Origin: Branchiostoma floridae
Taxonomy: Eukaryota > Chordata > Leptocardii > Amphioxiformes > Branchiostomatidae
Reading direction: 5' to 3'
Assembly: GCF_000003815.2 (NCBI RefSeq)
Contig: NC_049995.1
Span: 3,541,154-3,605,153, forward strand
DNA: 64,000 bases
The notes beneath the pieces are model-generated. The model was not told where the DNA came from. It searched no databases and worked only from the letters and a program-made list of their open reading frames with translations. The position numbers and the translations under genes were made by a program. Positions 3,769 through 63,260 of the stretch are shown in pieces (the stretch's first letter is position 1; every line of letters starts with the position of its first letter).

Positions 3769-6700
3769 TCAAGCTTTAACTTCTTTTTCTAGTTTTAGAC
3801 CATTTTTCTCTTCATCATTTTCGGGTCCGTCTTCAGGTGTTGGTTTGCACACTAAGTAAGACAGGAAACATAAAGCCACGCCCACAGTTCTTAGCCCAAA
3901 TCCCAGCCCAAACACGAACAGGCCCACTTTTCGGCTGTCGTAAACTAGACAGGCACCCCGTTGGCCACAGGACGTCTGCCACTGTAGGCACGCGTTGTCC
4001 ATGGCGCGGCCGTAAACAATGGGTCCGGGAATCATACCTGTAAAGTGTCGTGAAAACACTCGGTCAAAACATCGTCATGCCTGTTTTCGTAAACGACGTT
4101 GAATCAATTATTTTCTTATTGAAAGATGTGCTGTCTGACATCGAAAATTTGGAGGTTTGTACTAACGTTAACAGTCACTGTAGGAAGAAAATTGGTAGTA
4201 ACTGTGTACATGCGTGGCTGATGAACCTCTTCAACAATTATTTTCTTAATATCAACGACAGATCATTCGAAGATATCAATTGGCGCAAACGTGAGTTTGT
4301 AGCTTTCATCATCTTGCACATATAAAACATGGCTTCATTGCAGTGGTATGTACCAAGTGCTGCATTTTCTCATAGACAAATATTAGGGGCAATAAAACCT
4401 GATGACGTCATCCATATGACCCCCAAAAATCAGATTTAGAATTCTTTCATGCCCATCTATCAATGTTCGTTGCGGCTCCATTCTTTCGTAATTCATTAAT
4501 GATAAAAAATTAGCCAATTTAAATTTAAATTTGCCAATTTAGCCGACTAAATATCTTAAAAGAGAGTTTGAAACTTCGTTTAGGAGTTACTTACCAAGGA
4601 TTCGCATGAGTGTCCACTGCATCCCAAGTCCAAACGAACGTAGCTTTGGCGGGACAAGCCTGCATTGGAAAACAAATAAATGAAACCACATTACATAAAA
4701 AGCCGCTTTAGCCATTCAATGAAACTATGGCACTAACAAGGGGGAGATGTGAACGTCATAAAAAGCCATATCACATTTCCAACTGCACATGCGGAGTGTG
4801 ATGTATTGTGGTCTACTATTACAGTTTAAAACCCTAACTTGTAAACCATCACATGCTAGCCACTGGATATTGTTGGTACAGTCAGGGAACGACCTTACCT
4901 ATAATCCCTTCAATGTAAGGTGGCTTATCTATATTTATCAAGCACATTTTATTCAACTTTGCACCCTAGCCTATGCAGCAAATCTACCAGGCGTTGTATC
5001 AAATCTAAAGGGGATTTTTTTCAAGTTTATGGTTACGTCTTTCAATTACAATTTTAAAATTAGAGAGAATTGTTTATTTCTATAATTACCTCAATGTCAC
5101 CGCCGTAAAGGGCGGTCCGGCGGTTGAACCGATGAAGCCCATGACAAACAGGGAGACAAAGAACACGGGCAGGACGTAAGATTCACACTTCCTCGCGCAT
5201 GCGCCTTGGGCAGCAAATGACGTCACGTCTGTAGTGAAGTTGCTCTGCATCCCACCGGCTGGTATACAGCTGCAGTCGGAGTAAATCTGATGGACAAAAA
5301 AGAACAAACATTTAAACAAACAAACAAGTACAATGTTATCCATGACACTGCAATCTTACCTATATTATCAGTTTGGCAAGAAAACATTCATTGGGCAAGA
5401 ACGATTGAGCACTTTTTAAGATCAATAGCTAAACAAGAGACAAGTTGATAGAATGTTACCAATCGATGATAAATGAAACGTTTGAAAATATTTCAAGATA
5501 TGCTAATTAATTAAATGATTAAAGTATAGATAATTCAGCTAAATTTAAAAGCCTTCGCCACTTCTTTAACCAATCAATATGGCGGACTATGAATGACGTA
5601 ATACTCACGTGACTGTAAATTGATATACAACAGCGCGTACTCACCATGGTACCATGGTAGTATACTAGTAGTTAAAAGCGGTACAGACAAGTGGAAATCG
5701 CTTACTGGCGAATGGATATTGAACTTTGACCTAGACCACAATGTATCACGACAGCACATCCTCACCATGAACCTTGATATGGATTGAAACAATGAGAACT
5801 CACCATGGTGGTATAGTTCAAAGCGGTACAGCCGGCATGGCAGGGAGACTGGTACTGCACACCGTTCTCTCCGCACACCGGGTCGTGCAGACTGTCTGCG
5901 CAGGCGCAGGAGCTAGAGCAGGCCATGCTGGAGAAACAAGATGGCGGTAAGGTTAGCAAACTTAGTTAGCGGCACGTGTTCACGTGTTAATAAGATCACG
6001 TGTCCGTAACTATCACGTGCACGAGTTTATTTTTTGAAGTGATTGGACTTCACTATTGATCCAGAAGAGACGACATTGGTCGTTGAAAATTTGATCTTTG
6101 TGTACTTTTGTGCTAAAAGAAAGTTTAGGTTTGTACTAATGATTACTATACCAACACAGACGAGCTTCCATATGATCGATTATAATGATTGTTCATCATA
6201 TTATCTCATCAAGGATTGCACCTGTTAGAGGAAACTAAGTCGTCACAAATGTACACCCCTTTACATTCATATGTCTGTATATTAGTTTAGTTATTTTTCA
6301 CAGTTTTGAAAAGCGTACATATGCATTGTGGTCCCAAATCATAGTCTAAGGCCGGGTGTGCCTAAATACCACAAACTACCACAAACGACTCGGAAATACC
6401 ACAAACGACCACAAACGACTCTAATATGCAGTGTATATGGGTCAAAGACCTTGTTCGGCGCTCTGGAGACATTTAGAGTCGTTTGTGGTCGTTTGTGGTA
6501 TTTCCGAGTCGTTTGTGGTATTTAGGCAGACCGTCTAAGGCCCCTTGCTGTGCTTTATCTCCTCCGACCACAACATACCACAACTGCACATGTGCACATG
6601 GCCACTATATTTCAGCCTGAAAATCAACTTACCAACGATTACCATAATCAATCCAAAAACAAATAACCAAGAAACCGTTGTATATTTGGAAGTCTCTTTG

Positions 6701-20401: not shown

Positions 20402-23285
20402 TCACATCACCATTGGTGAGTTTAACATCATCTGCGTTATCATATTTCTCTTCTTCAATAGCAGCATTCGGCTTGTATACCAGATAGGCGAGAGAAATGA
20501 AAGTTGCACCCACAATTCTCAGCCCGAGAGCGAGACCGAACACGAACAGGCCCACTTTGCGGCTGTCGTAAACTAGACAGGCGCCTCGTTGGCCACAGGA
20601 TGTCTGCCACTGTGCGCATGCGTTGTCCATGGCGTACCCGTATATCATGGGTCCCGGGATGGTGCCTGAAAAAAAAAACAATGATAAGAAAGAACAGTTG
20701 GAATTTTCTCCTGGACTTATAACACATGATTTCTTTTAAAAAACAAACAGTTCATTCATTTAGAAGTTATACAGAATCTGTATATTTTACCGTATTTACA
20801 ACCATCCAAAAACAAGCATTATACAGAACAAAATAGGCGCAAGATTACATTAATTTCAAGTTGGTGATTTGAATGCCATTATCACATAACTCTTGAAATC
20901 TGTCGTAGCTATTAGAAAGACCAAAAGTAAATTCAACTAAGGAATCGTTGACATTGAAAAACAGCCAGGTACAAGCTATAATAAAACCAGTTTCCAAACA
21001 AGCACAAGAACTGATTACAATAATTATAACTGCTTTTTTATAAGGGTGAAAAAATCTGTAACATACCGATGATTCGGACCATACACCTTTGCATCCCTAG
21101 TCCAAAGGATCTTTGCTTGGGGGGAACAAGCCTGCCGAAAGAAACAAAGACGTAGTAGTTACACTGAAGAGCAATTTCCATACCATGCATAGAAATGATG
21201 CTTACTCTAAACAAAGCATCGAACCATGCAAGCCCCTAGTATCAGCATGTTGCTACGTTAAGAGTGTTAGTCGTTATTGTCCTTGGGGTGACAAACATGA
21301 AAGATAATCAACATAGGCCTAAAGAAACACCAAGTCTGCTGGAATAAATTTATTTTTAAGATATGCTTCAGATTGGGTTTTCTCGTACCTTAAAAGCTAG
21401 GAAAATGGTCATTTTGTATGAAAACAACTTACCTAAGAATAGCAGCCATATAGGAAGGTGCCGCGAAGGCCCCCAACATTCCCATCAAGAACAGAGTAGA
21501 GAAGAACAGGGGCACTCTGTAGGCTTCACAGTCACGCGCGCATGCGCCGTGGGTAGCCAATGACGTCACACCTGAAGTGACGTAAGCAGTAGAATTTTGC
21601 TGCATCCGGGAACTTGTGATGCAGCTACAGTTTGAGTAGACCTGGAGAGGAACATAAACATTCTATGTGGAGGCAAAGATATATAAATGGGTGAAATTGT
21701 CTTTCACAGCAACATGTGACCTTCATACGACATAATTGCGAGGTTGCGGCTGCCTTCGTTACAGAATTCCTCAAGTACAAAAAGTAGCAAAATTACTACG
21801 ACTCACAGTGCTTGAACATGAGGAATTGAACAATGCTGTAAAATAGGGCATCTTACAGTTCCATGTGCGCATGTGCAGTCAAGATGCATTATGGTCTAGG
21901 TCATAGCACAATATTTGCTACGTAAACAAATTTCTCGCCTTTTTTTGACGTTTGTATCAACACGAAATATGATTAATGTTAAACGTAAGATGAAAGGAAG
22001 ACAGAAAGTGTAGTCTTTCGTTAGGTCTTTTCATGACAAAACGTTGGGAAACTGCTTAGTAGCGAATTGATATTGAACTTTGACATAGACCACAATGCAC
22101 CACGACAGCACATCCTCACCATGAACCTTGATATGGATTGAAACCATAAAAACTCACCATGGTTGTATGGTTCAAAGCGGTACAGCCGGCATGGCAGGGA
22201 GACTGGTACTCCATACCGTTTTCACCACACACCGGGTTATACAGATTGTCTGCGCAGGCGCAGGAGTCGGCGCAAGTCATACTAAAAAACGTTATCAGCA
22301 CGTTAGCATAACGGTGGGCAAACGGAGAATGTTACATGGTCAGTGTGCTACTTGTAGACATTTCATGATAACTTTAAATTTGTGCTTAAAGTGCACTTAG
22401 AATTATAGCCATAAACATTTTGTGACTGCAGTTACCTCTTGCATCTCATTCTTAAAATAAAAAAGCATGCACTCCTGAGGCGTTGGCAAAAAAAAAAAAC
22501 AGCATAAAACATCAGCTGGAAAAAACAGCAACATACTTGTTGTTTAGCTGTCCGTAAGCCTTCGGTGGATCTTTGCAGTACATCAGATAAACACAAATTC
22601 CCATTCCTGATATTGTGTACATGATGAGGATGAACCGAAGCAGTTTTTTGCAGTCTACTCCGATTTTCTTGCTAATCCAACCGCCCACCAAGGAACCGAT
22701 CGCAAAGCCGGGGATCATGGATAACCCTGTAAAGAAACATAGTTATTAGTTTGTATGTTTTTGGCGACGCGTCAGTGGCGGAGGCATCTTTGTAGGTACT
22801 CATGAACATGGCTGGTGCCGCCATGTTGGACGGATCCAAAATGGCGACGGGAAAGTTGACACGCATATATAGCACTACTACTTTTAAAAAAACAACTACT
22901 AGTACATATCTACTTAAAAACAACTGCTAGTATATATTTACTTCAGAATTCTATTGGATATCAGATTATTTACAAGTAATTATTATAATTTAAAGACTGA
23001 CATCAAGAAAATACCAAAGGATGCTTACCAAAGTACAATGCCGATGACGTCACAGGAATGCCAAACAATATCTGGCAAACTTTTGGTGCAAAGGCGAACA
23101 TGCCAGAGCTGGACATATTGTCGAAAGAAACTATAACATAAAAATGTGAAAATGAGATAATGTAAAAATAAAAATGAGTTTTATGAAGTTCATACGCATT
23201 CTATTCATTTACGTATGATAAAAGCTTTCTTTCTTATCTGATCCAACAGAAAAACTACAGCACTAAAGATGTGGAAAGGCTACAT

Positions 23286-34398: not shown

Positions 34399-37300
34399 TC
34401 AGATATGATGGTCGTCATGGTGTTTCTTCCACAGTCCCGTGCGCATGTCTTCAGTGTCCCTCGGCATCATGGGCTTGTCCGTGTCACCAATCACGTCCAG
34501 GGAATGCCGGGAAGCGTTCAGGGAATGCCGGGAAGCCCGCAGGGAATGATGGGATGCGGTGAGTGACCCCATGGACACGGCAAGCTCTCCCAGTGTAACG
34601 CCATCTTTCTTTGGCGGCTCATTCGCTTCTTTTTCTTCTTGCTTCTTGAATCGGTAGGCAGCGCAGAGTACCAGGATAAGGCTCATCACACGGAGAACGA
34701 GTTGTCCGCCGATGAAGACGTAACGGTTCAGCGGAAGGTCGTAGAGGAGGCAGGAGCCTCGTTTGCCGCAGACGGAGGACCACAGCGTGCAGGTCGCGTC
34801 GATCATGGCGCCGAAATACACAGGAGACGGGATAAAACCTGTGACAAGACATGTCAAATAGATAGAATTATTGGAAATACAGAGTGAACGCAAATAGCCT
34901 TAATCATTAGCCAGAGGCCATCCTTCCCTGGGCATTTCGTTCCTAATCTCTGGTACACCCTCAGATTGGTGGGGATACAAGGGGGACGTCTCCCCCTTGC
35001 CTCACTGCTACTCCTGCCTCACTCCTAAGCTGTTTTTCTTGCCTCTCTCCTTTGTATAATTCTAGAATATCATCCACCTACCCAGCCAGAGCCGAAAGTG
35101 CGTCGTATACGACCTTTTAGTTAGTTGTGTCTCAGATCTGCTTTTTTAGGCTTGGTTGTTCACTTTTGGTGACGTGGACACTAACCATCATGTCAGCCAA
35201 TCAGAGAATTGCCCAACAGTTTTCTTTAGGTTGAGCATCGATTTGCAAATAAGGGAGCTCAATGGTATTTGTGACTAAGACGTTCAACGTACACAGCGAT
35301 CAAAGAGGTGCGACAATCCTTTCTGCGCCCAAACTTGTTCTTGATCAAATCTGTCTGATCCGAGGGAAGATGCAACCACCACAATGCCGAATACTGACTG
35401 AATGCATGGAGCAATGCATTGTACAATAACATTGCTTACTTACATTAATTTTCACTTAATTTTTGTATAGGTCCATTGTACTTACCAAGAAGCCTCAACA
35501 TCAGCTGTTGGACACCGAATCCGAAAGACTTGGTTTCAGGCGTCAGAGCTCTGCAATGGACAAACAAGGTATTCACGGTGAGTGTCTCACTTGTGTTGAA
35601 ACAGAGCTCAAATTGTATAACTGCAATATCAGTATGAAATATTGTTAAAAGAACAGTTGGTTGGAGGGTTGTATGTGCTTCTATGTGTAAGTGTATGATA
35701 GTTATAGTTTGAGCAAAGATGTTTTACTCTAATTGTTTAATCCCTAACCATTTGACTTGCTGTATCAAATTAGTGTTTCCAGTATCTAAAATCCTTGTCC
35801 TGCTTTAACCAAGGAGCTTTATCCTTGCTTTAACCACTTACCGGAGTGTCCCTATGATCACCGGAATGAATCCAAACGATCTCGTCAAGGCTGTTATAAA
35901 GAAGATGCCGACAAAGACCGGCCACTTCCCACAAGGTGGTCGACACGGCTTTGATATCGCGAAGTTCATGGCTCCACCATTCGTATTGTCTTCCTCCATG
36001 GCATCTGTTGGTTGTGGATTATACATGGTGGAAGTATCTGCTATACCGTCTTGTCGTGTTGTGGGGTTGGACGAGGTAGTTGTTGAGTCGTTGGCATCTC
36101 GTTTTTGTCTACCCGGGACAGAGGTTCCCGGCATACCTTGCGTCCACATACATCCACAGTTCGAGAAATTCTGCAGTAATATGAAATGAGATGGAAAATG
36201 TTAGAATGTGGCTGTTTGGCATATCCGTGTATGAAAGAGACCCTTTATGCAGTAAGGGTCCGTTTATTTTATTGTTTACGTATACGTACAAGATAACGAC
36301 AGGCAAATCTTATCTTTATGTTGCAAGGTACTTTCCTTTCCTTTATTAATTCAACAACAGATATACACAACATCATTACCATTACGTACCCATCATTACA
36401 AACTAAGTGTCTGTACAGATTGTGTGCTAAGTCGACGTAGTCTTGAATGTGTATGGTTGTTGAGTGTAAAGTTTATTGATTCAAATTCCTAGCAGGACCC
36501 AGTGTTATGGTCTTAGGTAGGGTATCTATTCGTTATCCTCCCTTGATTTAGGTGAAAATGGGTGCATATTATAGTAAATAAAACTAAAGCCAGAGATCAC
36601 AAGTTTGAGGAAAGCCACACTTCGAGCACAATAAAAAAACACCATACAAAAAAATTAGGGTCTTGCACAGCTTGTACCTATTGTGCAAAACTGGAGTGTT
36701 GCACCTAAAGGTGACTCACTGACTATAGGAAACTTACCGAGAAGCTGAATCTGCCGGGCCCCCGGATGATCTGTTCCTCGGTGCACCCTGCGTGGCAGCC
36801 CGAGAAGTAGGTGACGCCGTCCGGTCCGCAGACAGGCTTGTACTTATCCAGGGGACAGTTGCAGTCAGAGTTGCAAGATGAGATCAAGCTGATGCCTTGA
36901 AGCGTTGTCGGTTCGTTTGGATTATTCGGGCTAAAAGAAGAACATCGATCGACAATAAGCAAACGTTTTAATACAGTTTAATGATAATTTTCTGTGTATC
37001 AAGTTACATCAACTGTATCATTAGTTTTAATAAACAATATACTATGTGTAACATGATCTAAACTCTCTATCTTTTGTATGGAAGAACTTGTTATCTTTTT
37101 CTTGGTATAGGAATAAAAACGTTAACTTAACATGATGTTAATTAAAAGAAGCAAACAGCTTGTGATCAGCTAATTCCTAAGATCAGCTAAACCCAACTCT
37201 CGTGAGAGGATAGCCAGAATGAGACCACGCGAGAGTTGCATCGTTGAGGATCATGGGGATTTGTCCCATATTTGAGAACATACTTGTATCCATATGGGAC

Positions 37301-39041
37301 CGTCACGCCTGCCATAGGAGACTGCGGACAGGTGATGAACCTGAGGGGGACNNNNNNNNNNNNNNNNNNNNNNNNNNNNNNNNNNNNNNNNNNNNNNNNN
37401 NNNNNNNNNNNNNNNNNNNNNNNNNNNNNNNNNNNNNNNNNNNNNNNNNNNGAGGTACATGCAGCTTTCGGGGAAAGTTTCATCTTCTGAATGACGATTC
37501 CAGATCCAAGGATCCCGAGTACAGAGGATGGCAGGGATATCATACATGAAAGTTGTACACACACAATAAATGCAAATGGCGATAATGGCCCCGAATTATA
37601 TTTAAAAATTCATGCTACAGCTTTCATACGATATTTCTATTTTATGTGCTATTAATTCTTAGTAAAATATTGCATCGGTTCTTGACTTTTTTTACAATGC
37701 AATGTAGGTTAAATGTCTTCATCTTTGTTTTTAGACAGATAAAGACAATGTGGCCCTGCACTCAAGTTAGTAACTTATTTTAACAGTACCACATACAAAG
37801 TACAGACAGAAGGTAAAGATAGTCCTAAGTTCTATATACTTTTTGAGGCTGTATTAAAGGGTATGATATTGGAATGCGAAGCCTTTCACCACCTTTTACC
37901 TTCACAATCGAAGTTAGGTACTCATTTTTACACTTTAGTAGAGCGAGGAAAGTCATGTTAAGTGCCTTTTCTAAGGGCACAAGATCGGTGATATAATATT
38001 TCACTTTGTTTTTAGGACGAAGGACAGGGTAAAATCACGTAGCTAAAGCATCCGCTGCAACAAAGAGGTGCCTCACCTAGAACAAAGTTGGCCTTGGATT
38101 TGGGGATGCCAAACTGCATTTCCAGGTACTTGGGCATGAAGGAGAAGGCCCCGATGCCGGACACGGAGCAGACGGCCGTCATGGCCAGCAGCATGAACGT
38201 CCAGTTGGTCAGGATCGTCTTCAGGCTCTTAACCATCTCTGGAATGAATGGAGTAATGAGGGAATGAATATCAAATGAATGAAGAATGAACAAATGAACA
38301 AATGAATGAATGAATGAATGACTTCAATGAGAAAAAATTAGAAAAAATGAATGAATAAACGAATGACTTCAATGGCAGGTTCTTGCCACTAAAAGGCTAT
38401 CTAATTTTTGTTGGACAGTTCACTCCCAAACCAAGCATGTTATTCCAGTCAAGAACCATGATAGGCGAAAAGCCTTCAATCAAATATATGGTCTAACCAA
38501 TCATAGATGAAACATTACAAACCACGTGATGCCTCATGACAAAAACACGTGATATATCATGATGTAAACACGTGATGCATCATGATGTAGCCACGTGATC
38601 AATCATGAGTCACGTGTTATCCCACTAACCTTTGATTTGCTCCAGCAGCCCCCTGGCGGGATCCAGAAGCGGCTTTTTACCGCCGTCCATCCCCATCCCG
38701 GGGATCATCCTCTTCTTAGCGTTCAGAACCGCGGTCTCGTCTTCTTCTGGCGGCGCCTTTAGCTCTGCAGTGAGAAAAAGTTTCCTTAGAATTAGTTGCT
38801 TTAAAAAGGAATGAATGATACGCAATGCTACCAGACCTCTTCTCCATCTATTGGAGAGTTTTACACCTGCGCAGTTTTTTAGACCGATCTGTAAATAGTT
38901 GCAACTTTGGAGTTCTGCATTTGCACTGTAAAATACAAATGCACACACACACACACACATACGCACGCGCGCACACACAATATGCACACACACACAAACA
39001 GCTATACACACATACATACACACACAGGCGCGCGCGCGCAA

Positions 39042-48910: not shown

Positions 48911-49325
48911 CTCACTGTCCCTATAAATATATAGCTACGGCATCAAAAGGACCATAGGACTACCAGTACCTATTTAAGCTATACTGATTAAGCCATGATT
49001 GCTCCGGAGTTTGTTTAATGATATGCGAGCCAATACTTCCAAAGCAGATAAAAAGGATAATATTCTTTGTTGTAATGACTTCATTGTAAACATAACAAAA
49101 TATACTTCTAAAGCATGTTTTGTGCTAATTCATCGAAATTCTTCATCAAATATGGTACTGTGATCAAAAATGATATAAAAGTTTTACATGGTGTTATGAC
49201 TGCTTTAAAACAGAATTATAATTATATCTACTGTGTGGGTGATGTCTGTGATAAAGCAAGATAACAACCCTTATAATATCATTGAATTATGTATCTTAGC
49301 AGGTATTTTCGGTAACAGGTATTCT

Positions 49326-50945
49326 ACGTTTGTTGACCTATGCTTTACATTTTGTAGTTACATCATCTAAAATCTGGACGTACCAATTGTCTTCGCGAAA
49401 TTAGTTTTGTAACATCTTTTGTGAGTAGCGTTGACCCTACGTTTGTTGACCTATGTTTTACCTCTTTGTAGTTACATCACCTAAAATCTGGATGTACCAA
49501 ATATATTCGCGAAATTAGTTTTGTAACCAATCTTTTGTGAGTAGCGTTGACCCTACTTTTGTTGACCTATGTTTTACCTCTTTGTAGTTACATCACCTAA
49601 AATCTGGATGTACCAAATATATTCGCGAAATTAGTTTTGTAACAAATCTTTTGTGAGTAGTGCTGACCCTACGTTTCTTGACCTACGCTTTACCCCTCCG
49701 TAGTTATATCACCTTTAGAAAATCTGCATTGATGTACTAAACATCTTCGCGAAAGTAGTTTTGTAACCAACCTTTTGTGAGTAGTCTTGTCCATACGTTT
49801 GTTCACCTATGTTTTACCACAGTCTGTGTAGTTACATCATCTAAAATCTGGATGTACCAAATATCTTCGCAAAAGTTAGTTTTACAACCAATCTATGGAT
49901 GGCTTTCTAATGGTGAATAGTGTTGACCCAACGTTGTTGACCTATGCTTTACCTCTGTGTAGTTACATCAGCTGAAATATGGATGTAACAAATATCTTCG
50001 CAAAAGTATTTTTCAACCAAAGTTGGGTTTCTTGTAGTGACCATACGTTTGTTGACCTATGCTTTACCCCTCCGTAGTTATTACATCACATAAAATCTGC
50101 ATGGATGTACCAAATATCTTGGCGAAAGTAGTTTTGTAACCAATCGTTTGTGAGTAGTCTTGTCCATACGTTTGTTGACCCATACTTTACCCCTCCGTAG
50201 TTATTACATCACCTAAAATCTGCATGGATGTACCAAATATCTTCGCTAAAGTAGTTTTGTAACCAGACTATTGTGAGTCGTCTTGACTCTACGTTTGTTG
50301 ACTTATGCTTTACCCCTCCGTAGTTGTATCACCTAAAATCTGCATGGATGTAACAAATATCTTCGCAGAAGTATTTTTCAACCAAAGTTGGCTTTCTTGT
50401 TGTGACCATACGTTTGTTGACCTATGCTTTACACCTCCGTAGTTATATCACCTAAACTCTGTATGTACCAAATATCTTCTCAAAAGTAGCTTTGTAACCA
50501 ATCTAGTGTGAGTCTTCTTGTCCATACGTTTGTTCACCTATGGTTTACCTCTGTGTAGTTATATCCCCTAAACTCTGGATGTACCAAATATCTTCGCAAA
50601 AATATTTTTGTAACCAGTCTATTGTGAGAAGTCTTGTCAATACGATTATTGACCTATGTTTTACCTCTGTGTAGTTACATCACCTAAAATCTGCATGGAT
50701 GTACCAAATATCTTCGCAAAAGTATTTTTCAACCAAAGTTGGGTTTCTGTAGTGAGCATACGTTTGTTGACCTATGCTTTACCCCTCCGTAGTTACATCA
50801 CCTAAAATATGCATGGATGTACCAAATATCTTCGCGAAAGTAGTTTTGTAACTTAACTTTTGTGAGTAGTGTTGACCCTACGTTTGTTGACCTGTGTTTC
50901 ACCTCTGTGTTGTTACATCACCTATAGAATGTGGATGTACCCATG
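49326..50945 (+). repeat. Satellite of about 14 tandem units of about 118 bp
   Basis: Units begin near 49331, 49444, 49560, 49676, 49800, 49935, 50050, 50172, 50296, 50414, 50531, 50648, 50764 and 50884 at TGTTGACCTATG, followed by TTTACC, TAGTTACATCACCTAAAATC, GGATGTACCAAATATCTTCG and AGTTTTGTAACCAA. At least two subtypes alternate (TTCGCGAAAGTAGTTTTGTA versus TTCAACCAAAGTTGG). Non-coding. Confidence 0.9.
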
Positions 50946-52927: not shown

Positions 52928-55900
52928 TCAGACAAAACGCATTTTGTCGCTATTTTCTTCATTTTCTTCACTTACGGTTTGCTGCCCTTCGGCAACCTCA
53001 TCATCAGCAGACTCATCTATTTCGTCTGAGTTCACTTCATCATGTTGGTTTTCATCCGGAATGGTGGAGTGATCCGGGTGGACTTCGGCCTCCACAACTT
53101 CCGTCGGTTTGACAGCATTTTGCGGACTTCCTGTATCGGCTTTGCTGGACCCTGGATCCGATACTGCTGCTGGAGCCTGCATCTCTTGGTTGTCGTCATC
53201 TTGAGGATCTCCGTCGACTGCCCGCGTGACTTGGTCATCTGCAAGCTGCAGCATTTCCTCTACAGCATTTGCTTCGTCGTTAGCTTCATTAGCTGGTTGC
53301 TCTTCATGATCATCACTTGTTGAAGTTTCTTGAAAGTTAGTAACCGTTTGGGAGCTTTCGGGTTCCACGTGCTCTTCAAGGCTGGAGGTATTTCTTGACA
53401 TGTTGTCAGGCGTGTCGTCATTTACAGCACTCGTCTCGTCGCTGGTTCCATTACCATTGGCCAATTGCTTTTCGTGACCTGTTTGGATCTCTTGAGGGTG
53501 GCTATCTTTCTGGGAGGTTTCATGTTCCGCATTCTCTTTCATACTGGCGGTATTTGTTGAAATGTTGTTTGGGTTGCCGTCTTGGACTTTTGGAGATGCG
53601 TTTTCGTTTGCGGGTAGTTGTTCATCAGTCTTCGGAGCATCCGAATTTGAGGTTTCAACTTCTGCACGCTCTTCCTTGATAGTAGCATTTGTTGACTGGT
53701 TCTTTGGAGTTGCGTTTTCGTTTTGAGATAGTTTTTCGTCAGTCACCAGAGCATCAGAACGGGACGTTTCACGTTCTGCAATATCTTCCATGCTGAAGGT
53801 ATTTGGTGACGGGTTGTTTGGATTGTCGTCTTGAACCACAGTGACTGGAGTTTCGCTTTGTGGTGGTTGATACTCCTTGATGTCGGATGTATCTGCAGAA
53901 AGGTTGTTTGGATTGCCGTCTTTGACTACTTGGGTTGCATTTTCGTTTTGAGGTACCGGTGGCTGTTCATCGGTCTTCAGGGCGTCCGTATATGCTGGTG
54001 GGTCGACATTCGGTTGGGGGGTGTTCGGATTTTCGCCACAGGCTACTGGGGTTACAACAGTTACTTCAGATTGCTGAGACACTTTGGTGGGTTGTTCCGA
54101 GTCTCTCGCAACGTTGTTGTCTGAAGCTTTATGCGAGGTGCTTTGGATCACACCAACCATCCTCAGCGATGACATTGATGCTGCGAGTGACCCCATGGAT
54201 GTTGCGATGTCTCTGGTCGTGAGTCCACCGACTTTGCTCTTCGGATCGCTCCTCTCGCGTCGCCGAAACATCCAGGCAGCGAATAGCGTCATGACGATCT
54301 GCACGGCCTGGATGCCCTGCAATAGCCCGAAGAAGCTGGTTCGTAACTTGCCGAGGTCGTAGAGAAGACAGGCGCCCGTGGAGCCACAGATGGAGGACCA
54401 GAGCGCGCACGTGCTGTCGATCATAGCTCCGAAGTAGATCCCTCCAGGGATAAAGCCTGCGCGGAAGGTAGAAACATATGATTATATGAATATATGACAA
54501 ATAAACCAATAAAACAAAAACAATGATTCATGATCTGGGACAGACAACAACTAAACGCAACATAGTTAACTTATCTTTCTCCTCTACAAACGTCTCAACA
54601 ACTGTCTGCTGTCTTAACTGATCGCTACAAAAGGGCAACTTTACTTTTCACTGATAGGAGACAAACACGTTGTCGAATCGTCTGTAGACAAGAAAAATCA
54701 TGGTTTGTATCCATGAAAAGTATGTAAAATTGATGTCAACCCGATAAAATAATTGATTGACATTTGGTTGTAAAAAGTAACAAGTTTATATCACACATTC
54801 TGTTTTACTAAATATCTCATGTATACTCATAGCGCGTATGTTGCTTTACATGAACTTACCCAAGAGTCTCATCATTAACACAGCCACTCCCATCCCGAAT
54901 GATTTGGTCTCAGGTGTAAGGGACCTATTGGGAGAAACAGCAAAAAGAATGTTGTTACAATGCTAAAACGTTGTCTTTTACAACAAACATGGTGGCGATC
55001 CCTAATTACGGTCACGAAGACACAAAAATCAATTTACATTTTCACAAGTGAAAACAAGCTAAAGTGTATCTTTTACTAGTAGCCTTGACTGAAATTAAAA
55101 TAATTAAAATCATTACACGATCGATTGAAACATAATTCAGATACCACCGTATATTAACCATGCATGCGCGGACATTGCAGAAATACCTCTGGCCTGAATG
55201 CGTCGCCAAAAACGTACCTTAAAGTCGCAAGTAGCAAGGGAACCAATGCAGAGCTGGCGAGAAGAACGTAAGCGGCGAAAGCAGGAACGAAGCCAGTCAT
55301 TAGCTTTTTGCAGTTCTGCGGGCACGGGACTCCAATTGCGAAGCTGGGCATCTGTATTTGTGGCATTCTTTTAGGAGGGGGACCTGGTGGTTTTCCGGGA
55401 CCCTTGTCACCTGACGCTGGGTTGCTGTCTTCCGTTGGATTGCCACCTTGCGTTGGGTTGCCACCTTGCGTTGGATTACCATTTTGCGTTGGATTGCCAC
55501 CTTGCGTTGGATTGCCATTTTGCGTTGGGTTGCCACCTTGCGTTGGGTTGCCACCTTGCGTTGGGTTGCCACCTTGCGTTGGGTTGCCACCTTGCGTTGG
55601 GTTGCCACCTTGCGTTGGATTGCCATTTTGCGTTGGGTTGCCACCTTGCGTTGGGTTGCCACCTTGCGTTGGGTTGCCACTTTGCGTTGGGTTGCCACCT
55701 TGCGTTGGGTTACCACCTTGCGTTGGGTTGCCACCTTGCGTTGGATTGCCAGCTTGCGTTGGATTGCCATTTGGCGTTGGGTTGCCACCTTGCGTTGGGT
55801 TGCCACCTTGAGTTGGGTTGCCACTTTGCGTTGGGTTGCCACCTTGCGTTGGGTTGCCACCTTGCGTTGGGTTGCCACCTTGCGTTGGGTTGCTATCTGA

Positions 55901-58900
55901 CGTTGGAGTGTCACCTGGTCTTGGGTTGCCACCCTCTGTTGGGTTGCCACCTTGCGTTGGGTTGCCACCTTGCGTTGGGTTGTCACCTTGCGTTAGGTTG
56001 CCACCTGCTGTTGGGTTGCCACCTTGTGCTGGGTTACGACCTTGCGTTGGGTTGCCACCTTGCGTTGGGTTGCCACCTTGCGTTGGGTTGCCACCTTGCG
56101 CTGGGTTGCCACCTTGCGTCGGGTTGCCACCTTCCGTTGGGTTGCCACCTTGTGTTGGGTTGCCACCTTGCGTTGGGTTTCCACTTTGCGTTGGGTTTCC
56201 ACTTTGCGTTGTGTTTCCACCTTGCGTTGGATTGCCACCTTGCGTTGGATTGCCACCTTGCGTTGGGTTGCCACTTTGCTTTGGGTTCCCACCTTGCGTT
56301 GGATTGCCACCTGGTCTTGGGTTGCCACCTGGTATCTTTGCCCCATCCGGTTTTCCTGGTCTTCCAGCCTTTTCAGCAATCTTCATCAGAACTTCCAATG
56401 GCAGACTTGCAAGGCAGCTGCAACTCGAGAAGTTCTGTAGACAATGATGGGCAAAATACGTCTTTGAGAACATTTGTCTACAAATAAAAGAATAAAATGC
56501 ACCAAGCAATCTTGTGGCTATAAACGTTTAAGAAATTTACGGATGTTTCAAGGACTGTACTAAAAGAGCAAAAATTTATTAGAGTGCGGCATAAAGCGCT
56601 GTGTGTAAAGAAATTGTAATACAATTGTAGCAAACAAATGTAAGCCCTACATGTTTTAACAATTTATGCCTCTGTGGCCGATCGGTAATGCAACCCCACA
56701 GCATGGCCATCTGGATCCAATGCCATGGATCCATTGGCCTGAGTTCGATCCCAGGGTCGGCTGAACTCGGACATATTGTAAGGGACCGCATTCGTCTGTT
56801 TGAGGGAACGTAAAATGGGGTCCCGTGTTGGAGGAGGTGCCTCATTACTCATAAAAATACCTATTTGGCTACAACTATACACTATTTAAAGTCTAATACT
56901 TATCCAAGAAGAAGCTGCTCACCGATAGACGGATCCCCATCGGGTGCACGAAGGTCTGTTTGTCGGTGCAGCCTGCGTGGCAGCCCGAGAAGTAGGTAAC
57001 ACCGTCTATCCCGCACACCGGGCTGTACTTCTCCAGGCCGCAGCTACAGTCTGAGTTGCAGGGGGACAGCAGGGCGATGTCTCCGGCCGTGATGTTGGGG
57101 ACGTTCGGCATGTAGGGGCTGTGGTAACGACAGAAGGAATGGGGATGTGAATGGAATGCCAGAGACGGCGGAGGGTACCGACTTCGAAGCATGTCTGACT
57201 AGCTACCAGATCCACATGCCATAAACTCCAAGGTTATTTTTCTAAAGTTTGTCAAAAACATTACCTCTTCTAAAAGGAACAATGCATGGTCGTAACTTTT
57301 TCTCGCCTCGACATGTGAACATTGCCCATGGTGCATGATAATGGGTACCGTATGATAATGGATAGCACTGCGTTAGAAGGTTTGAATTCGTACGACGTGT
57401 TTGTTATCACCAAATAGGAGCATCTTCTCTGGATAGTTTTAAAGAACGCTTGCAGATAGATGTGTAAAAGCTAGGTGTGACAGGTCGTTCAGTGTAATAT
57501 TACCAACTGCTGCCGCGCGCCGCGTACCTGTGAAGCTGGACCGGTGTGTTACGGCGAAGGGCGGTCATACCGGCTATATTGCTAGAAATAGATACAGATA
57601 GAACAGTTACCTGTAACCGTATGGTATGGTGACCCCTGCCATGGGAGGTTGTGGACACTTGATGTAGTGTAAGGCGATACTGGGGATCAGGGACAGAGTG
57701 GTGTACATCGCTGCCAAGTACAGACTCTGGCGAGCTGTGAGCTTGAACTTCCTGATGACGAGTCCCGAGCCCAGAATACCAACAATGGTAGATGGTAGGA
57801 GAATAACAGCTGCAGAATAAAAAGAAAACTGACGCTACATCATTTTCAAAAAGTATAATATTTTTCAACGATTTTGGCTGATCAGAACTTAACAGAATAG
57901 TAAGGTTTTCATTCACAAGCAATACATATGTATAAAACACAGTCGACGTACGTTCCGGTGACTGATTTAATCACAAGACGTTTGGGACCGCATTGTAAAC
58001 AGCGACCCCTAGCTGCAGTTCAAAGTAGAATGAGTCAATATTGCCTTGAGAATGTCGAATGTGATTGTGAACATATTGCAGTGTATTGGTTGTGAATATT
58101 GTTATCCAATTATACATCTTTCGTTACTCTACTTTGCATCATCTTTCGCTGCTATACTTAACACAGATAAGGTGTTTTAAGCAAGTTTCTGGAAGACTGT
58201 TTTTCTTCTTTGGTGTGTTGGTATTAGGCAATATGCATACAGATCATATCTAAAATGACTTGTATCTTCATTACCGGCTGAGGAAATAGAAATACATTCG
58301 TTTACCGATCAGAAAGTTGGCCTGGACTTTGGGGATGCCAAACTGAGTCTCTATGTACTTGGGCGTGAATGACGATCCTCCCCAGGAGTTGATGTAAGCA
58401 ACGAGAGCGGTGGCGGAGCACAGGAACGTGGAGTTGGTGAGGATCACTTTTAGGCTAGACATCATTTCTGGATAAGAAAAAAAATCATAAAAATGAAATT
58501 CAATATGGAATGCATAAAGAAAACCTATCAATACAAAAAAATAGACAGACAGGCCAAAAACTGCACCTCCCCGTGCCTTTTTCACAGACCCCATACCCTG
58601 GAACGTCTTTTATGTAATATGATAAGGACTAGTTCTGCCGCCTCTGGACTTTACTTCCTCTTACTTCTGCTATTCTTACATTTGACATTTGCTATCGTTC
58701 CACTTGCTTCCTGTCACTCTATTGACGGACAGCATATTCAAATAACAAGGACAGAAGAAGGGTTATGATACCTTTCAGCTGCACCAAGAGACCACGAGTA
58801 GAGTCTATCACTGGCGGGCCGCCTTCCAGCTCGGTGATTGACAGCATTTGCGTCGTCTCTTCTGTGTCGTCATCGTCGTCACTCTTAATGTTTGATCGTG

Positions 58901-60743
58901 GTTTCTTCATGGCTATGGGGTTTGAAAGGCAACAAGTGCAATATACAGAGTTTGATAATGTCAATAGATAAAGAAATGCAGATGGAAGAAAGCATCAATT
59001 TCCATTTTAGATATCTCTTTTGTATGGAAGGTTTCATGTGTAGAAAAAACTCCTGGCACTTTTGACCATTTGCTGACGTCACGTATCCGCAAGATCACGT
59101 GTTACCAAAATCACATGTCTGTAACTCTCGCGAGTTTACGTTCTAAAGTGATTGGTCATCAGTATTGATCCGGAAGAAGGCGACAGTGGCCGTTGTGAAG
59201 GCGACAGTGGTCGTTAAAAATTTGATCCATGTTTACCCTTGTGTTGAAAGAAAGTCTAGTATTCTGTTGTGATTACTACCATCACATATGAGCTTCCATG
59301 AAAAATTAAAGATGTCTGTAAAGCACCAGACAACATACCAGGAGGGAAGAAGAAAACGATACAGGCCGTGACGAGCATGGCGGCTGCGGTGAGGAAGAAC
59401 CCCGTCCACCAAGCTCCCACCCACAGCGGGTTGTTAGGCGTCAGCCCTAGATACGAGGGGTCGATGCCCTTGTCCACGTCCACGTACATCTTGAGGAGGT
59501 AGGAGCTCATCAGCATCCCCACCGCTCCTCCGGCGACAAGGATGCTGTAGCCTATCCCTGAAAATGTCAAAACATAAAATATTACTTATTACCTCATTGA
59601 AACGGCAGAAACATTAACAAGATGATGGTGGCCACCTAACACGAATGATTAGAGGGGTGGGGGTATTGTTTTCGGTCTGTGTATCTTTTTGTTTGACTTT
59701 ATGTCTGCCCTTATTTATTTCAATGTGTAGAGTGACAGGATGCAAAGCGGAAGATGGACTGTGACTGGATATTGGAAGGTTGGGTTGGCTCGGGATCAAA
59801 GTTGGTCCCACAGATTGAAAGGAAAATGCATAGACGGAATGAGCCAGGATTCCACGAGGAATAAAACAGTAAATGTAGTGTATTCAATGGAAGTATGAAA
59901 TCTTGCCATGTCCAGACCTGTACTGTCCGTGTCTCAGAGACCTTGAACTTTGACATTTTACCCACAATGCACTGTACAGCGCATGCGCAGCTGGAACCAT
60001 AAACAGCCTGATATACAGGCAAGTGAACTCACCAAAGTACACAGCCGTGCTCTCCTTCCTCACGTGATCATCGATGTACGTCGTTCCCAGGGGAAACAGA
60101 GGAGCGGATCCCATTCCGAAAACGATCTGCAGTGATACGAGAGACCGCTAGGTTATATGAATTGGTTGTAATACGTTCATCATATGATTTACCCATAACC
60201 AGTATGGCTAAATTAAAATGGTTCTCGGCATGATTCTAACTAAACAATTTTCTCCCCGTCCCGATAATTTTTCTTTGATGCTTTGAGGGTTTTGGTGATC
60301 GTTCGAAATAAATTTACACATATAGCATAATATAATTTGGCACTATAATTTTTACCATAGCTATTACAAGTTTGTTGTTGTTGTCGGAGCAACGCGCCGA
60401 AATTGTAAATCATCAGTTCCCTTCTTCTAGGCATTTTACAATTATAAAGCAGAAATCATTAGTTTCCTCCTGCTGCAGTAGAATTTTTTGTTTAAAAATC
60501 AACAATAACACACCGTGACCAGTGAACAAGGTTAACAGTTGTTGTGGTACGTACCTGACCAATCAGAAGAAGCACAAACCAGCCGCCCTGTGCCGATACT
60601 GCTGCGGCCTGCTCAGCTGTACAGTCCGATCTCGTCTCGTTCACAAGACAGACGTCCTGGTAAATTTTAACAAGAAATGTACAGCTAAAGGACTGTGTGT
60701 ATCATATAATCACTATGAAACTTTTGCACAAACACAGGTACGT

Positions 60744-60805
<62 letters not shown>

Positions 60806-63260
60806 CCGTCTCCAAAAAATGGTATTCGATTTAAAAACGTATATGACATGAATACATAAAATTCATTTTCATTTTAATGTTCAAGCAGTCAAGAAAATAA
60901 ACAAAGAGGTGGTGATATGAAATGTAGCAATCTAGCAAAATTTGTTCGAAAAATTACAGCAACAGGTTTTAAGAAACAGATCGATGTAATCAAAACTCCA
61001 GGTATTATTTTATTATGTTAAGGATCAGTGACAGCACTATCAAGTGCCCGGTAGTAAAATAAAATGATTGACAGGTCGTACCTTTGGTGTCTGCATGCTC
61101 TGATTGGCTACGCTCTGAGGGTCGATGTCGTACGCAGGCGCAATGAAGTGAGGCAGGCCAGACAGGGCACACCCAACCGCCATGACTAGCAGACCCACTC
61201 CTGAATGTTACAAACAAATCAAAGTACTATTATTAGATAAAAGACCACAAAAATCACTAGTAATTTGAATAAATTACAGCACGAAACCTATCTTGTTATG
61301 TATGATCTAAATCTTCTACATACAACGACGCGGATATAAAGAATGCCAGATGCTTATGTACGAGGCAAATGTACCGCTAGTTCACTTTTATCCGCCGGGT
61401 AACCTATATCCGTTGGATTAAAAAACAGAGTATTTAGGGAAGTCGAATTGTGGTTTCAAATTGCAACATTTTCAATACAATGCAGTTTGAAACCACCGTC
61501 CGTCGACTTGATATCCCTAAATACCCTGTTTAAAAATACCTTGTTTTTAAACACAACGGATATAGGTTGCTCCGCGGATAAAGGCGAACTAGCGTTACAC
61601 GTGAAAAAGTAAAGTGACACGGATATACGCGAACACCACTGAATGAAACAGAAAGAAATATGAAAAATCCCACAGATGAAAAGGATCATCTACATGTATC
61701 ATAATTATTCCATGACAATTGTGGCAACCATGTGGTGTAGATTGGTTATACATAATAGGCTGTATAAGTACATGAGAGAAATGCTTATATAGACAATGAT
61801 ACTTCTTCCATGCGCATTACCTATTGTGTATTTCACTAGTACTTCAAATTACTCCATGTACAATAGTAGCTTAGATACTCTGTTGTTGACAAATGTATTA
61901 TTTGTTTTTTACTAATAAAGCCTTGAAAAAAAAAATCTTTTAAGAAAAGTTCTATCATAATGAAAGGTATAACCCTCACATTTAAAAACTTGCCAAAGAA
62001 AGAACGTCTATAGACTTTTGGAAAGGAGATAAAGTCGTACCTATGTATTTTGGCCTGCTTGCCCCGGGTTTGCCTCCATAGTAAGTGACGAACAGCACAG
62101 CCAGCAAACTCCCCGCGTCAGTGCCTGCCGCTAAGATGCCCAAATCACTGCTTTTCAGTTCAAACCTAGAGATATAAAACGTAATAGTTAGGTGACATAC
62201 GCAAGTTGGTATCTCACCGCACTTGGGACACCGGTGCGGCACTGCGGGGTTCGTTCACTGTGGCACTGTTGTGTTATTTTATTTTCGAATTTTATAGTAT
62301 AAGAGATAAAGAGACCTCTAACCTTTTCTCAAACAAACATATTTGATGTATTCTGCAACTAAATCTTCTATTCTTTTGATATTTCAACATCTAACTGTTC
62401 TTTCGCCCTGTCACAACTGTTAAAAACTCATTCTATCTGAGGATCTAATAGCAGTATTAGGTCCCTGAATGCATCAAAATAAAAGAAATAAAGAGGGCTC
62501 TAACCTTTTCTCGATGGTGGCCAGTACCCCGTTGAGGTAACCTCCCCCTCCGGCTGTGTTCAGCAGCAGCCCGATGCACCACACCACGGCAAACACCTTC
62601 GGGTTAGCCAGGAACGATGCCCACCTACGGAAAAACAATATTATATTCCGTCAGATACATTAATGACATCAAAACAAAACATACTCCCAAAGTCTAAAAC
62701 TAAATATAGTATCATTTTCTCGTTTGAAGAGATTAATGATTAAATGTCCATGATGATTTTCAATATCTATTGCTTTTCGATTAAGAAACATGAGTTTGAA
62801 AATATTCATTGTCGCTAGACTTAAAAATAGTACATTCTGAAAGTAGAGGTGTATATATAGGCCATCATAAATGAATGAGTACTACTAGTATTCAGCCTTC
62901 GATGTAAATCAAACGAAATAGACTAATTGAACTAATTTGAAACCATGTAGGACTTGAAAAAATGAAATACAGGCAAATCAAAGGAAGAAAATTTGAACTT
63001 TATATAAACCATATTCTCCAGGACCTGAAGAATACCACATTTTCTTACCTTGGTTTGCAACACAAAACCCCACACCTCACGTCCTCCCCTTCCTCGATCT
63101 CTACTACTTCCACATCCGGGACAGGGCTGCTCAGGGCTTCTGCGGCTGCGCTGTGTGCCGCGTGACTCGTGACGTCATCAGTAGGACCCGGATGATAATG
63201 GTGGACGATGCGGGGAACATTCCGATCGCCACCTCTGACCCATAGTTTTTCACTCTCCAT
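52928..63260 (-). CDS. Gene E: giant OATP/SLCO transporter with repeat loop and long tail
   Basis: Exons: 63049-63260, 62505-62624, 62041-62165, 61082-61200, 60555-60656, 60033-60126, 59339-59557, 58772-58912, 58306-58467, 57611-57809, 56923-57118, 55218-56434, 54860-54924, 52928-54456. All junctions are GT-AG and the sum is exactly 4500 nt (1499 residues plus TGA), about twice the family length. ATG at 63260 has a strong Kozak context (ACGCCATGG). TM1 begins in exon 2; the Kazal-like module (P-V-C-G-I-D-G..C-H-A-G-C) is at about residues 499-563. Exon 12 inserts about 51 hexapeptides (residues about 599-904) between the C-S-C and the closing C-P-Q-N-C of the same loop. After TM12 the tail (about 1056-1499) is acidic, Asn/Thr/Glu-rich and repetitive. 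Gene D is the nearest relative. Predicted surface transporter with a mucin-like or stalk-like ectodomain; substrate unknown. Confidence 0.93.
53000..54080 (-). repeat. Degenerate protein repeats in the gene E cytoplasmic tail
   Basis: About five diverged units of 45-65 residues sharing D-G-N-P-N-N, S-M-K-E, E-T-S-x-x-D-A, T-D-E-Q-L-P and N-E-N-A-T elements. Strongly acidic, without hydrophobic helices, so probably disordered. They follow an S-M-G-S-L-x-A-S motif shared with the tail of gene D. Confidence 0.75.
55412..56329 (-). repeat. 18-bp coding minisatellite (about 51 units) in gene E exon 12
   Basis: In-frame tandem array; plus-strand unit TTGCGTTGGGTTGCCACC, coding on the minus strand for G-G-N-P-T-Q. 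Position 1 varies among G, S, N, D and A, and a few units read N-T-T or N-L-T. No stop or frameshift in 918 bp. It is located wholly inside an extracellular loop. Confidence 0.93.
56657..56845 (+). mobile_element. tRNA-derived SINE with A and B boxes
   Basis: A box TGGCCGATCGG (56675-56685) and B box GTTCGATCCC (56743-56752), about 57 bp apart. The body does not fold as an intact tRNA, so this is a SINE head rather than a tRNA gene. Sits in the gene E intron beside the Kazal exon. Confidence 0.65.
57480..57602 (+). repeat. Dispersed ATACCGGCTAT repeat, copy 3
   Basis: GTGTGACAGGTCGTTCAGTG, CTGCTGCCG, GGTGTGTTACGGCGAAGGGC, GGTCATACCGGCTATATTGC, AGATACAGATAG. Ends 8 bp from the donor of exon 57611-57809. 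Confidence 0.6.
59070..59282. repeat. Interspersed repeat with CACGTG, copy 2
   Basis: Partner of 5970-6156. It has one CACGTG and one CACATG, and an internal duplication of GCGACAGTGG.CGTT. In a gene E intron. Confidence 0.6.
60742..60801. repeat. CA microsatellite
   Basis: About 28 CA units in a gene E intron. Confidence 0.9.
61329..61630. mobile_element. Foldback element, MITE-like
   Basis: Arms of about 145 bp read CGCGGATATA, GTACCGCTAGTTC, CCTATATCCGTTG, TATTTAGGGA and AGTCGA, mirrored in order after a short centre at about 61478, with small indels. Non-coding, in a gene E intron. Confidence 0.7.

Follow-up and report, generated by a model that had tools for sequence, protein, structure and literature searches.

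The DNA analysed here is a 64,000-nucleotide window of the Branchiostoma floridae genome (contig NC_049995.1, positions 3,541,154 to 3,605,153), and the element under study is an 18-bp minisatellite lying in frame within a predicted transporter gene of the OATP family. The window sits in a tandem OATP cluster: a six-frame search with an OATP profile placed OATP pieces at about 3.51 to 3.72 Mb of the same contig, with further clusters elsewhere, and five OATP last exons fall inside the window, near position 797 on the plus strand and near 3928, 20556, 34738 and 54350 on the minus strand. The gene carrying the minisatellite (the array gene) was modelled on the minus strand as 14 exons running from 63260 to 52928, with GT-AG sites and matching phases, which together would encode a protein of 1499 amino acids (aa). 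A simple score, together with alignment to paralogous genes, guided the choice of splice sites, and the start codon is predicted; GT and AG dinucleotides were checked by script for exons 1 to 11 and read from sequence context for exons 12 to 14.

From the predicted ATG in exon 1 (63049..63260), exons 2 to 6 follow at 62505..62624, 62041..62165, 61082..61200, 60555..60656 and 60033..60126. Exon 7 (59339..59557) holds the OATP signature region, PLWVGAWWTGFFL, and exons 8 (58772..58912), 9 (58306..58467) and 10 (57611..57809) appear to encode a cytoplasmic loop, about transmembrane segments (TM) 7 and 8, and about TM9, respectively. Exon 11 (56923..57118) encodes a Kazal-like module whose profile match finishes in exon 12 (55218..56434), which reads from NFSSCSC through a long linker containing the array to CPQNC and TM10, and which is bounded by the acceptor ACAG/AACTTC and the donor TTTAAG/GTACGT. 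The model closes with exon 13 (54860..54924, probably TM11) and exon 14 (52928..54456), which encodes TM12 and a cytoplasmic tail of about 400 aa.

The first-pass annotation had described the gene as an otherwise complete OATP, and this was borne out, since every exon was found and both halves of the predicted protein match the Pfam family OATP (PF03137) with 362.9 and 102 bits against a cut-off of 25.8 (E 3e-108 and 3e-29). Between TM9 and TM10, residues 519-570 match Kazal_2 (PF07648; 29.4 bits, cut-off 22.8, E 8e-7). An excerpt of PMC10507018 gives the OATP signature as D-x-RW-(I/V)-GAWW-x-G-(F/L)-L, located between extracellular loop 3 and TM6; the predicted protein reads N-P-L-W-V-GAWW-T-G-F-F at this place, keeping WV-GAWW-x-G-F and departing from it at the D, the R and the last L. 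By its sequence the gene is a member of the known OATP/SLCO family with the signature only partly kept, and its insert represents a new variation on OATP loop 5. The earlier placement of the array between the cysteine motifs of extracellular loop 5 stands, although the array is not inside the Kazal module: it starts at aa 599, past the Kazal match, within the linker to TM10 that has the final cysteines of the Kazal module (CSC) at one end and the CPQNC motif at the other.

Tandem Repeats Finder, run over the window, reported an 18-bp period with 50.7 copies, 88% matches and 0% indels at 55418-56330. As first read, the array is in frame, and its extent is exactly 51 units of 18 bp, or 918 bp, at 56329-55412 on the minus strand, corresponding to aa 599-904. 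The consensus unit on that strand is GGT GGC AAC CCA ACG CAA, encoding GGNPTQ, which accounts for 25 of the 51 units; in all, the units comprise 17 different peptide sequences and 26 different DNA sequences. The reported spread of residues at the first position of the unit was recovered, with G in 39 units, S in five, N in four, D in two and A in one. The 306 residues comprise 85 G, 54 N, 52 P, 47 T, 42 Q, 9 S and 17 others; 11 of the 306 are charged, and the array contains 43 P-T steps and two N-glycosylation sequons (NTT and NLT). Serine and threonine together make up 18% and proline 17%, to be set against the Ser/Thr/Pro-rich tandem repeats of mucin-like domains. The array is flanked within a single open exon by NFSSCSCLASLPLEVLMK on one side and by PSFAIGVPCPQNCKKL, belonging to TM10, on the other. 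A search of the genome for array DNA returned only the self-match, a weak negative because the search skips simple repeats. Kinship with known repeat proteins was also sought, by comparing the array exon with PDB sequences in phmmer, and rejected: of the four sequences returned up to E 10, three aligned through low complexity, and the fourth, the transporter FLVCR2, was listed at E 0.14.

The length of the same linker, taken from the last Kazal CxC to the CxxC ahead of TM10, was compared among paralogs whose TM10 exons were gathered with a profile of the CxxC-TM10 flank. Since PF03137 also matched 9 of 14 bacterial and archaeal control genomes, three of them above the cut-off, lone matches to this profile were not trusted without the cysteine motifs. 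At least 26 last-exon matches were counted by eye; 20 linkers were measured or visible, two matches (L041 and L046) lacked a TM10 exon and four were left out. With the TM10-flank profile no TM10 exon was found in stretches L041, L046 and L050. Two TM10 rows, L051 and L033, both visibly short, had a cysteine spacing that the script did not match, and further rows left out were partial TM10 repeats in L039, a fragment in L044, one row in L032 and two chance frames in the window. The resulting 23 rows represent 22 distinct exons, because L028 and L040 are one exon.

Linkers of 10-26 aa were found in 15 of the 22 distinct exons and linkers of 68-363 aa in the other seven, which belong to six genes. 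The longest is that of the array gene (363 aa), followed by L034 (251 aa), the two TM10 exons of L035 (99 and 78 aa), L047 and L049 on another contig (92 and 90 aa) and the window's next paralog, whose TM10 exon at 35841..36170 on the minus strand has a linker of 68 aa without a tandem repeat. Two more distant paralogs in the window, with TM10 exons in the open frames at 21432..21662 and 5089..5355, both minus strand, have linkers of 26 and 22 aa. L034, a neighbouring gene, resembles the array gene in the loop position, in the flanks (LPPEVLMKIA and PSFAIGAPCPQIC) and in having an in-frame tandem repeat, but its unit is a different one, of 42 bp or 14 aa (GQRPGTGAGMPDSG), present in about 13 copies that are open in frame, one irregular unit being two whole residues longer. 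Lengthening of the same loop segment in paralogs of the same cluster, in one of them with a different tandem repeat, adds to what had been described from the array gene. In a tree built from the Kazal, TM10-flank and TM12 blocks (24 of 25 rows, L046 being omitted as it had no TM10 exon; 132 columns; the two L035 rows share their Kazal and TM12 blocks), the seven long-linker rows split from the remaining 17 with a support of 90. In the simplest account, the linker was probably lengthened once, early, after which two different in-frame minisatellites expanded.

Three of these paralogs have features of their own. In L035 (C17:3633950-3637500) the two TM10-type exons, at 1089-1511 and 2238-2675 on the minus strand, stand behind a single Kazal exon and are candidate mutually exclusive exons; if so used, they would give one gene two outer loops. 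In L047 and L049 (C14) serine and threonine make up 31-32% of the 90-92 aa linkers, a more mucin-like composition than that of the hexapeptide array. In the next paralog of the window, the linker contains SSNPTTRQ and YNPQPTD, which might, speculatively, be kin of the stretch that gave rise to the N-P-T-Q unit.

Coding constraint on the array had been argued from the S, N, D and A at position 1 together with the lack of a stop codon. This argument proved weak. The simulated chance of a stop-free coding frame was 0.04 for 70 substitutions and 0.48 when the 24 distinct variants were counted once, and frame 2 of the plus strand is also stop-free over the whole array; the open frame was therefore rejected as strong evidence of coding. 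Among the 70 differences from the consensus unit, 28 are synonymous against 17.1 expected in a spectrum-matched simulation (P 0.003). The coding array has 0% indels at 88% identity over 913 bp, compared with 6% indels at about 80% identity in the long arrays at 14474-15652 and 49325-50941, so that the absence of indels is a little more telling than the absence of stops. The latter two arrays, with units of about 176 and 116 bp, lie outside the model of the array gene. Firm evidence for coding comes from position: the array lies in one open exon, flanked on either side by conserved OATP sequence, and a paralog carries another in-frame repeat at the same place.

Taken together, these data suggest that, in one clade of tandemly duplicated genes, the stretch from the Kazal module to TM10, originally a short linker, first turned long and low in complexity. 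In the array gene the 18-bp unit would then have grown to 51 copies, by slippage or unequal exchange; because 18 is divisible by three, the reading frame is untouched whenever whole units are gained or lost. The linker was probably already long and tolerant by then, so that copies could accumulate without harm to the transporter. The predicted product is a flexible, nearly uncharged and disordered loop of about 306 residues, which the disulfide-rich extracellular domain would hold to the outer face at both ends. Since both ends, the Kazal CxC on one side and CxxC/TM10 on the other, are anchored in the same extracellular region, the array must be a loop, and the stalk proposed earlier is not supported; its shape should be that of a bristle or canopy. 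Such a loop would take no part in transport and, if active at all, might serve as a passive spacer or shield above the extracellular mouth. A passive or tolerated role is the most likely reading and a reasonably probable one.

Several observations weigh against this account. When the 24 distinct variants were counted once, which is fairer because copies of one variant spread along with the repeats, nine were synonymous against 6.2 expected (P 0.13). Three short arrays in the window also have 0% indels, two of them (units of 22 bp and 47 bp) at 95-96% identity and the third, at 38523-38608 (23 bp x 3.7), at 80% identity. The inner branching of the long-linker group is weak, with supports of 22, 45 and 74, and its single origin depends on a tree of 132 columns in which L047 and L049 lack one of the three blocks.

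The array and the other long linkers could instead have been selected as a glycan-bearing ectodomain, protective or binding, in the manner of a mucin-like shield. This would fit the restriction of long linkers to one clade, where two different Gly/Pro-rich repeats occupy the same site, as well as the 43 P-T steps, the 18% serine and threonine and the two sequons of the array; one to three sequons occur in each of six of the seven long linkers, and N-glycans are reported in the same loop of OATP1B1 in excerpts of PMC10709409 and PMC10507018. The content of serine and threonine is lower, however, when the two repeat-bearing linkers are taken whole (16% and 12%), and strong constraint was not seen in the substitution test of the array. 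The composition and P-T steps of the array permit O-glycosylation but do not show it. The main motif of the unit, NPT, is not an N-glycosylation sequon, and 8 of the 15 short linkers also carry a sequon, so that glycosylation is no novelty of the long linkers. Selection for a shield seems unlikely. Its fuller form, in which the linker is a fast-evolving selected segment that provides each gene copy with a disordered, probably glycosylated shield of its own, in two of them by way of different minisatellites, would appear somewhat less probable still; if true, transporters with like cores would differ in what reaches or binds their outer face.

Alternatively, internal splicing might take all or part of the array out of the transcript, leaving most of the protein with a short loop. 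The 38 donor-like [CA]AGGT[AG] steps of the array share a single phase, and the frame would be preserved by several AG acceptors located at its end or beyond. L035, in which two TM10 exons stand behind a single Kazal exon, also makes a choice of splice sites at the linker thinkable; a second TM10 exon was sought in the array gene with a TM10 profile, and none was found. Of the 14 AG sites examined between the end of the array and the end of the exon, however, the two richest in pyrimidines lie at 55367 (a fraction of 0.71) and 55253 (0.79); neither is in frame with any GT site that precedes the array or with 47 of the 49 inside it, whereas the in-frame sites have a pyrimidine fraction of only 0.29-0.57. 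Splicing-out of the array is therefore conceivable but not favoured, and we regard it as improbable. That the gene is an unexpressed dead copy, or that the copy number of the array is an assembly artefact, is more improbable again: repeat copy number is difficult to assemble, and the loop and tail of this gene are both long and unusual, but the 14 exons join through GT-AG sites into one open frame, the paralog L034 shows a comparable change, and the array is not a single unit multiplied by the assembler because it holds 26 distinct DNA units.

The cytoplasmic tail of the array gene (52928-54260, minus strand) is of low complexity and includes a 114-bp repeat of about two copies at 53589-53822. 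It also contains a PPAY motif, of the PPxY type bound by Nedd4-type ligases. The open frame of the next paralog stops much sooner past TM12.

The features of mucin-type proline-threonine-serine domains, which are repeated, contain proline and threonine and are nearly uncharged, are shared by the array; it differs from them in its moderate content of serine and threonine and in lying in an internal loop of a multi-pass transporter rather than in a free ectodomain. Coding minisatellites in human proteins, as described in PMC1273636, likewise have in-frame units that are multiples of three and vary in copy number; the terms "transporter" and "solute carrier" are absent from the main text of that paper, which thus offers no precedent there for a transporter loop. 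The array had been called unfamiliar from described OATPs, in agreement with a search of titles and abstract openings in the open-access literature, where no tandem repeat in an OATP loop was among the matches listed; subscription journals and genome annotations could hold one.

The best solved relatives of the predicted protein are OATP1C1, 1B1, 1B3 and 2A1. In excerpts of PMC10507018 and PMC10709409, the corresponding loop of OATP1B1 and 1B3 is described as the largest extracellular loop, with a Kazal-like module and several disulfides, and its role is stated as unknown. The solved OATPs compared (OATP1B1, 8phw; 1B3, 8pg0; 1C1, 9dxp; 2A1, 9qzo; 6C1, 9ubw) are kin in sequence, with E down to 5e-69, and share with the array gene the Kazal-like module in extracellular loop 5 and alignable CxC and CxxC flanks. 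In contrast to the array gene, their linkers, with lengths derived by hand from alignment ends, measure about 12 residues in 2A1, 19 in 1B3 and 21 in 6C1, and the Kazal-side and TM10-side matches leave no space for an insert comparable to the array. Linkers of 68-363 residues in one clade against 10-26 in the other paralogs suggest that the point between the two cysteine pairs is free of folding constraint, and the loop seems to be a site at which floppy outer segments arise in one group of transporters. The long-linker clade provides a natural series for probing the part played by this loop in transport, glycosylation and interaction.

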